Below, one piece after another: positions 470-1,834 of a stretch of 64,000 nt of DNA. The notes below the pieces were generated by a model that was not told the origin of the DNA, did not search any database, and saw only the letters and a list, made by a program, of their open reading frames with translations. The DNA lies in contig JABLYA010000007.1 of the NCBI GenBank assembly GCA_013177855.1, positions 1-64,000 of the forward strand, in the 5' to 3' direction. The translations under genes were made by a program, and so were the position numbers. Every line of letters begins with the position of its first letter. The first letter of the stretch is position 1. This DNA comes from Ignavibacteria bacterium (lineage in GTDB: Bacteria; Bacteroidota; Ignavibacteria; Ch128b).

Positions 470-837
470 ATGACAAAAGAAAATCTAGTAAAGTGGTTTT
501 TAAATAAATTTAATTCTTGTTATAAAGTAAAATATATAGATTATCCAAATTCTATATTTTATTATTATGATCCACAATTTATTAGACAAAATAAATTAGC
601 TAGAATTATGGGTGAAAATATTGAATATCCCTCAAAAGCTCTGGTATAGTTCTTTTTGAACAGGATTTAAAAAATAAATATTTTTATTGTAATTATAATG
701 AAATATGGTCTTTTTTTGAAAACAATTTTAATACTAATTATAATGAAATCCAATCTTCAATTAAAGATATATTAGAAAAACATTGCAAAATTAAAGGGGT
801 TACACCGCATTTAAATATCGACCCGGAAGAAATATAA
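470..837 (+). pseudogene. Small gene copy 1 running into CRISPR-like array 1 (frameshifted)
   Basis: ATG at 470 opens a frame beginning [14 protein letters not shown] that stops at 647-649. The +1-shifted frame then continues with plausible protein ([20 protein letters not shown]) to 837. The last part ([15 protein letters not shown]) is encoded by the first 36-bp CRISPR-like repeat at 771-806 and the next spacer. Partial copies lie at 1161 and 1526, with an inverted piece at about 1903-1982. Family unrecognised. It may be a real small gene whose 3' end was overtaken by the array, or the segment may act as the array leader. Frameshift near 640-650. Confidence 0.45.
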
Positions 838-1069
838 TTAGAAAAACATTGCAAAATTAAAGGGGTTACACCAAATGTAGGTTTATCTTTGCTACATATT
901 AAATTAGAAAAACATTGCAAAATTAAAGGGGTTACACCACTGATAATGATATTTTATTAAATATTGGTATTAGAAAAACATTGCAAAATTAAAGGGGTTA
1001 CACCTTGGCTATTACAGGCTCTACTCTTACCATATTAGAAAAACATTGCAAAATTAAAGGGGTTACACC
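771..1069. CRISPR. CRISPR-like array 1: five 36-bp repeats, four full spacers
   Basis: Five identical 36-bp repeats (ATTAGAAAAACATTGC at one end, GGGGTTACACC at the other) lie at 771-806, 837-872, 903-938, 969-1004 and 1034-1069. They are separated by unrelated spacers of 30, 30, 30 and 29 bp. A 25-bp sequence follows the last repeat, then a degenerate, partly inverted repeat at 1095-1160. Repeat identity, 36/30 spacing and unrelated spacers fit a small CRISPR array. No cas gene lies in the window, so it would need host or distant phage Cas proteins. The repeats are translatable in frame with the upstream ORF ([12 protein letters not shown]), an alternative reading, but the spacers are not coding-like. 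Confidence 0.75.
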
Positions 1070-1094
1070 CGAGGCGGAAAGTTTGGCTGTATGA

Positions 1095-1160
1095 ATTAGA
1101 AAAATTCAAACCCTTTAATTTTTGCAATTGTTAGAAAAACATTGCAAAATTAAAGAGTTT
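1095..1160. repeat. Degenerate and inverted repeat (anti-repeat-like) after array 1
   Basis: A partial repeat start (ATTAGAAAAA) is followed at about 1105-1128 by a sequence close to the reverse complement of the array repeat (AAACCCTTTAATTTTTGCAA). A direct degenerate repeat then ends in AAAGAGTTT just before the second gene copy. The inverted and direct pieces could pair into a hairpin. This resembles a tracrRNA anti-repeat only superficially: no tracr tail or terminator follows. Confidence 0.4.
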
Positions 1161-1313
1161 ATGACAAAAGAAAATCTAGTAAAGTGGTTTTTAAATAAAT
1201 TTAATTCTTGTTATAAAGTAAAATATATAGATTATCCAAATTCTATACTTTGTGTAATTTGAAAACAATTTTAATACTAATTATAATGAAATCCAATCTT
1301 TAATTAAAGATAT
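1161..1313 (+). pseudogene. Small gene copy 2, internally deleted
   Basis: This starts with the same [14 protein letters not shown] coding sequence as 470, nearly identical for about 85 bp. After the codons for PNSI it jumps to the 3' part of copy 1 ([14 protein letters not shown]) with about 165 bp missing and the frame broken, and leads directly into array 2. It appears to be a recombination product between array-flanking copies. Confidence 0.55.
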
Positions 1314-1481
1314 ATTAGAAAAACATTGCAAAATTAAAGGGTTTACACCATATTTCACCTTACTTTGTTACCAACACCGATTAGAAAAACATTGCAAAAT
1401 TAAAGGGTTTACACCCACCAATATTTTGCACCTTTTACTTTAAAAATTAGAAAAACATTGCAAAATTAAAGGGTTTACACC
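1314..1481. CRISPR. CRISPR-like array 2: three variant 36-bp repeats, two 30-bp spacers
   Basis: Repeats at 1314-1349, 1380-1415 and 1446-1481 differ from array 1 by one substitution in the GGGGTT/GGGTTT region and are identical to each other. Spacers at 1350-1379 and 1416-1445 are 30 bp and unrelated to those of array 1. A 13-bp stub follows the last repeat, then a degenerate repeat at 1495-1525 that abuts gene copy 3. Internal homogenisation of a variant repeat is expected if the array grew by repeat duplication after splitting from array 1. Confidence 0.7.
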
Positions 1482-1525
1482 TTATCGAACAAACATTAGG
1501 AAAACATTGCAAAATTAAAGAGTTT

Positions 1526-1798
1526 ATGACAAAAGAAAATCTAGTAAAGTGGTTTTTAAATAAATTTAATTCTTGTTATCAAGTAAAAAATATAGATTAT
1601 CCAAATTCTATATTTTATTATTATGATCCACAATTCATTAGACAAAAGAAATTAGCTAGGATTACGGGGGAAATATTGGTGTAATTCTTTTTGAACAGAA
1701 TTTAAAATATTTTTATTGTAATTATAATAAAATATAGTTTTTTTTATAACTAATCTTAATACTAATTATAATGAAATCCAATCTTTAATTAAAGATAT
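1526..1798 (+). pseudogene. Small gene copy 3, decayed
   Basis: Third copy of the [14 protein letters not shown] gene. It matches copy 1 through [11 protein letters not shown] and then carries substitutions and indels (an early TAA near 1682, a truncated [13 protein letters not shown] part, a stop near 1735). Its end, like copies 1 and 2, runs into the 36-bp repeat. Confidence 0.5.
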
Positions 1799-1834
1799 AT
1801 TAGAAAAACATTGCAAAATTAAAGGGGTTACACC
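1799..1834. CRISPR. Single CRISPR-like repeat (array 3 remnant)
   Basis: One perfect copy of the array 1 repeat follows gene copy 3, with no second direct repeat. The following sequence (1835-1902) is partly an inverted, scrambled piece of the small gene. It could be a one-repeat array or the left end of a collapsed one. Confidence 0.5.

Follow-up and report, generated by a model that had tools for sequence, protein, structure and literature searches.

CRISPR-like arrays with captured bacterial DNA at the 3′ end of the coding sequence in a family of jumbo-phage genes

The window analysed here is a stretch of 64,000 nucleotides from contig JABLYA010000007.1 (C7) of an Ignavibacteria bacterium assembly (GCA_013177855.1). 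Its content is phage-like, with family matches to an NAD-dependent DNA ligase, a clamp loader and an exonuclease. Close to its start lie three copies of one gene together with arrays of 36-bp repeats, and the features are as follows.

1–452, plus strand: 3′ end of a clpB-like gene, which forms the upstream flank shared with the sister contig C8 and is identical there
470–806, plus strand: gene copy 1, with a frameshift near 639 relative to the intact C8 copy (tblastn, alignment); its 3′ end is repeat 1
771–1069, plus strand: array A, five identical 36-bp repeats of the main form, ATTAGAAAAACATTGCAAAATTAAAGGGGTTACACC (771, 837, 903, 969 and 1034), and four spacers (807–836, 873–902, 939–968 and 1005–1033)
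1070–1129, no strand: truncated spacer (1070–1094) and short inverted repeat remnant (about 1095–1129)
1130–1160, plus strand: degenerate terminal repeat, fused with the beginning of gene copy 2
1161–1313, plus strand: gene copy 2 with an internal deletion, an N-terminal piece followed by a C-terminal piece from 1258
1314–1481, plus strand: array B, three repeats with GGGT instead of GGGG (1314, 1380 and 1446) and two spacers (1350–1379 and 1416–1445)
1350–1379, plus strand: spacer ATATTTCACCTTACTTTGTTACCAACACCG, a sense groEL fragment (I-S-P-Y-F-V-T-N-T), 26–28 of 30 positions in several Bacteroidota genomes
1495–1525, plus strand: degenerate terminal repeat, fused with the beginning of gene copy 3
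1526–1834, plus strand: gene copy 3 with a frameshift, closed by a single repeat of the GGGG form (1799–1834)
1835–1863, plus strand: remnant 3′ of the single repeat
1852–2011, minus strand: inverted partial copy with the gene start (1959 to 1885), a repeat remnant (1959–1981) and a spacer-like stretch (about 1982–2011)

The original prediction described nine perfect 36-bp repeats in three groups, and these are present base for base. The spacers have the coordinates it gave, with lengths of 30, 30, 30, 29, 30 and 30 nt, and group 2 does differ uniformly by one base from the sequence shared by groups 1 and 3. It overlooked the two truncated terminal repeats (1130 and 1495), the three broken gene copies, the version of the locus on C8, and an inverted copy of the repeat/gene-start junction at 1852–1981. 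Both truncated repeats lead directly into ATGACAAAAGAAAATC, which is the gene start. A 19-mer core of the repeat has 12 matches in the window at three or fewer mismatches, compared with 0.46 expected, and decay in the window arrays is confined to the terminal repeats. The anatomy is that of a CRISPR array: near-identical direct repeats of 36 bp separated by unique spacers of near-constant length (29–31 bp).

The repeat also makes up the 3′ end of the coding sequence in a family of jumbo-phage genes, whose encoded C-terminus ends in [V/F]TP. All three gene copies in the window are broken and the array there is out of frame; in C8, the gene copy that follows clpB is an open frame of 152 amino acids. 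Structure prediction gives, with high confidence, an N-terminal alpha/beta domain of about 115 residues, and a tail of low confidence, as expected of a disordered stretch. The N-terminal domain has no significant match in the PDB (best E 0.22) and no recognisable nuclease or integrase fold; one match is to an uncharacterised phage protein. Pfam and PHROGs searches with the gene gave nothing usable, and no homologues outside the assembly were found in INPHARED phages, in 99 genomes (98 of them relatives) or in a genome-contig set.

In an alignment, the first 638 bases are the same in C7 and C8, and few differences follow up to the first repeat. Beyond it the same locus has different spacers, with none in common. 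The two could be two loci in one genome rather than two versions of one locus, and there may be an assembly error at the C7 contig end. C8 also carries what we take, by eye, to be an SbcC-like frame and a tail-sheath-like frame. At 11640–11790 of C8, on the minus strand, is a lone decayed array of two repeats and one full 30-bp spacer, with no adjoining gene copy. In addition, leucine-rich-repeat-like coding repeats (SYNQLTSLEGAPEKVEG) are common to contigs C5–C8 with 85–99% identity (window 58739–59291; C7 99215–100776 and 146601–147145; C8 1–486 and 4752–6078; C5 20671–22131; C6 90187–91646). Such shared repeats may be the reason why one very large phage, or several related ones, was assembled in pieces.

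Relatives with 37–55% identity are found in IMG/VR, in 1–24 clustered copies per record. Many of these copies are followed by an array of 36-bp repeats and unrelated 30-bp spacers with a period of 66, and the repeat sequences are other than that of the window. Each array has its own repeat variant, for example a private variant present four times in L078, and thus the local repeat is duplicated with each added unit. The exact window repeat has no match in IMG/VR, because repeats are phage-specific. The 3′ end of the first repeat is ACACC in 14 of 16 compared, the remaining two having ACATC and GCACC. In L222 (1577–1612) and similar repeats there is a partial 3′ palindrome (GGTGTTGACACC, TGTATATACA, GTGTATTAACAC), possibly a recognition site.

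The arrays of relatives have a polarity. Gene-proximal repeats are identical or nearly so and distal ones are decayed; the mismatch between adjacent repeats rises with distance (Spearman 0.77, p 2e-10), in a test that takes in the terminal repeat, which is almost always degenerate, nearly by definition. This is the leader-proximal conservation and trailer-end decay of CRISPR arrays. Paralogues in L020 have units that are diverged or missing, which fits old captures that drifted. Identical loci with identical arrays come from several metagenome samples (L078/L079/L080 and L225–L230/L233), and therefore those arrays are stable across those samples.

A repeat and a spacer together, 36 + 30 bases, make 22 codons. 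In relatives, a stop codon falls in the frame of the array in 4 of 49 spacers, whereas the two alternative frames have stops in 21 and 32; a smaller earlier count gave 1, 18 and 23 of 35. With so few in-frame stops, the gene reads through the array, and the frame is under selection. Units are in frame in L017, L020, L074, L224 and L225, with 12 conserved and 10 variable residues. Because the 66-bp unit preserves the frame, each capture adds 22 residues to the tail, 12 of them fixed and 10 captured. The stop codon is provided by the last unit and overlaps, in some copies, with the start codon that follows. In the window and C8 taken together, 4 of 9 full spacers have stops, and thus the frame constraint there is lost or limited to the first unit. 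The arrays therefore depart from the non-coding nature of CRISPR arrays, being coding in relatives, and in the window too the repeat is the gene end. Nor do they have the ancestry common to the whole unit that an in-frame protein repeat would have, since the 10-residue parts are unrelated to one another and partly bacterial, and the window frame is broken.

As in CRISPR arrays, several spacers come from foreign nucleic acid, here bacterial DNA. Their GC content is 0.31–0.35, compared with 0.22–0.26 for the phage loci. The L222 spacer matches, at 30 of 30 positions, the start of a tRNA-Ala gene with upstream bases in Flavihumibacter soli, the only exact match among about 85,000 species genomes. 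F. soli was considered as the phage host and set aside, there being no second spacer match. Besides the groEL fragment in array B, spacers were traced to a U32-family peptidase gene (L074; 25–28 of 30 in seven genomes) and to valS (L081; 27 of 30), both in the frame of the array, and to antisense glnS (L224; 25 of 25). A second L224 spacer is similar, over 25 exact nt, to a Bacteroidota repeat element. In a shuffled-spacer control the best match was 21 of 30. The names of the source genes are presumptive, in that they rest on motifs in the translated host frames. A similarity of the L081 spacer peptide AYWDKANKIA to G448 was judged a chance match.

For most spacers, and for all but one of the six full window spacers, no source was found. 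A comparison at blastn sensitivity with 50,697 phage records gave no match, and the phage's own contigs gave no source. About two thirds of the assembly's chromosome gave no convincing match to window spacers except the groEL peptide SPYFVTN. It should be pointed out that the sources found are all conserved genes because only conserved genes are recognisable across species, and given this bias the captured pieces may have been taken from the host at random. The majority of mapped spacers have the sense orientation relative to the host transcript. The six sources show no consensus protospacer-adjacent motif. Mimicry of host peptides is disfavoured as the driver, as the frame is also preserved in captures from tRNA, from a repeat element and from an antisense strand.

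The original prediction saw no cas gene near the arrays. Cas1 is indeed absent from the window, and a chromosomal contig holds all three cas1 genes of the assembly, with none on C7 or C8. One of them adjoins a Cas9-sized frame and a II-C-like array with 29–30-nt spacers. Cas1 was not found in 14 records of relatives, most of them fragments. The phage repeat has no resemblance to the three CRISPR repeats that adjoin the chromosomal cas1 genes. Neither a repeat common to a cas-linked array nor a repeat and leader copied from a host CRISPR was found, a comparison made with the assembly's own chromosome, and the host may differ. An RNA families search gave nothing, and the repeats fold no better than shuffles, so the structured repeat of type VI-B is not seen.

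Chromosomal CRISPR spacers gave weak matches only to C7 and C8. In G000, chromosomal spacer 23556 (C1a) matches C4:12750–12778, and spacers 14420 and 14484 (C1b) match C4:1116–1372, at 28/29, 30/33 and 29/32. These matches link the chromosome to C4, another phage-like contig, and not to C7 or C8. Contigs C3 and C4 of G000 have frames of 5,414 and 5,861 amino acids, reminiscent of crAss-like phages.

The best explanation, to which we give a probability of about 0.65, is a CRISPR-adaptation-like insertion of host DNA at the phage gene end that duplicates the 36-bp coding repeat. Pieces of bacterial (host) DNA of about 30 bp would be inserted beside the gene, each insertion duplicating the 36-bp stretch that forms the end of the reading frame. 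The product would be gene-R-S-R-S-R′, with the newest units gene-proximal and the decayed repeats distal. In relatives, each capture would lengthen a flexible protein tail, and selection would purge stop-bearing captures. In the window phage the same process would have run, but the genes there are broken and the frame is lost.

Cas1-Cas2 has a known signature, an insert of 30 bp that comes with a 36-bp duplication and is placed at one end. The phage site would resemble a leader-repeat junction, at which host Cas1-Cas2 would act in trans. In Flavobacterium columnare, II-C machinery has been reported to supply VI-B arrays in trans (PMC8092290). The signature and this example together make host Cas1-Cas2 on the phage gene end the simplest proposal; the capture enzyme would be a Cas1-Cas2-type integrase, most likely that of the host.

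The original prediction read the locus as phage-borne mini-CRISPR arrays, and arrays of this kind could supply guide RNAs to host Cas effectors acting against host genes or rival phages. Part of it stands, i.e. the large phage, the CRISPR-like anatomy and the captured foreign DNA (the groEL spacer). The lengths of 36 and 30, the polarity and the host-gene spacers, translation genes included, agree with guides as well. Huge phages with host-targeting spacers, one of them against glycyl-tRNA synthetase, have been described (PMC7162821), as have archaeal viruses with differing spacers at one position (PMC6858448). Use of host Cas proteins is not supported, since the repeat is unlike all three CRISPR repeats of the assembly, varies between arrays and between phages, and is a gene 3′ end. 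Repeats that differ between arrays offer no common processing handle, and their folding, no better than that of shuffles, offers no structure. Furthermore, most mapped spacers, being sense to the host transcript, could not pair with it, and the frame kept in relatives is needless for a guide array. The prediction had also named what would speak against it: spacers that match nothing or vary little, with the repeat occurring in intact homologues as part of their coding sequence. As the repeat is the coding 3′ end of a gene family, in C8 and in relatives, half of this is what is seen; the spacers do vary and some have matches. Functional guide arrays are thus unlikely.

Perhaps the capture of host DNA is the work of the gene product itself or of another phage enzyme rather than Cas1-Cas2, and serves, as a dedicated diversity-generating system, to vary the tail of the phage protein. 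The array is always on this one gene family, whose N-terminal domain is conserved and confidently predicted, each phage has many paralogues, and the phage records are without Cas1. This is a slightly poorer prospect than guide arrays, given a domain with no recognisable nuclease or integrase fold, and inserts of 30 bp, a duplicated repeat and a leader polarity that are those known of Cas1-Cas2.

Another alternative is that ordinary protein repeats have been taken for CRISPR, with a coding unit of 22 residues in tandem and linkers of 10 residues that are hypervariable. This would account for the in-frame units of five relatives and the frame selection, but is very improbable, because repeats identical at 36 of 36 positions beside unrelated 30-mers are unexpected from tandem duplication and point mutation, the window repeats are identical though their frame is broken, and the bacterial sources of spacers, an exact tRNA gene start and antisense glnS among them, refute it as a full account, so that it holds for old decayed units. 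TIGR-Tas arrays were also considered, and were dropped on account of the 30-nt spacers.

Adaptation-like capture at a gene end has likenesses to several known systems. Virus-borne mini-CRISPR arrays, in SPV1/SPV2 of Sulfolobales (PMC6858448) and in huge phages (PMC7162821), are likewise short and without adjacent cas genes; they too can have different spacers at the same position, and spacers that match host translation genes. Those arrays have a host-type repeat, an intergenic position and virus or host targets, whereas the phage arrays here have a gene-specific coding repeat unlike the CRISPR repeats tested and, in relatives, spacers in frame.

Type VI-B arrays have 36-nt repeats and 30-nt spacers, lengths that match those of the phage arrays. 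In Bacteroidota these arrays (Cas13b) also receive spacers without adaptation genes of their own, and many of the spacers are self-derived (PMC8092290). Unlike them, the phage arrays have no VI-B repeat but a coding one that ends in ACACC, and the upstream motif TTTANNNNN is absent from the sources found. Off-target insertion followed by duplication and growth recalls neo-CRISPR loci. Such loci arise by non-canonical Cas1-Cas2 integration and are known from E. coli experiments, whereas the phage arrays are natural and recur at a single homologous coding site across many phages and paralogues. Variation aimed at a phage gene end is also the mark of diversity-generating retroelements, but here foreign 30-mers are inserted, with no adenine mutagenesis of a template repeat, and no template repeat was seen.

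As to what the arrays do, we infer that, rather than serving as a working crRNA set, they chiefly alter the protein tail, a change that the phage tolerates or exploits, and this is the least secure part of the interpretation. Equally insecure, our leaning is towards accidental capture, by which a flexible tail grows longer and more varied; in relatives selection would keep it in frame, and in the window the frame is broken. A more ambitious reading, somewhat short of even odds, is that the phage has a system that writes host DNA unit by unit, in frame, into a dedicated protein end by a CRISPR-adaptation-type reaction. The tail would then be a translated record of host DNA and a source of new coding sequence.

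The lack of a report in the open-access literature is not proof of novelty. The arrays also carry a caution, in that what is called as a CRISPR array in a phage genome may be coding sequence. If the proposal is true, CRISPR-type spacer capture acts on a phage protein gene and captured DNA turns into coding sequence, which would bear on how Cas1-Cas2 finds its target, on new starts of CRISPR arrays and on the birth of coding sequence.
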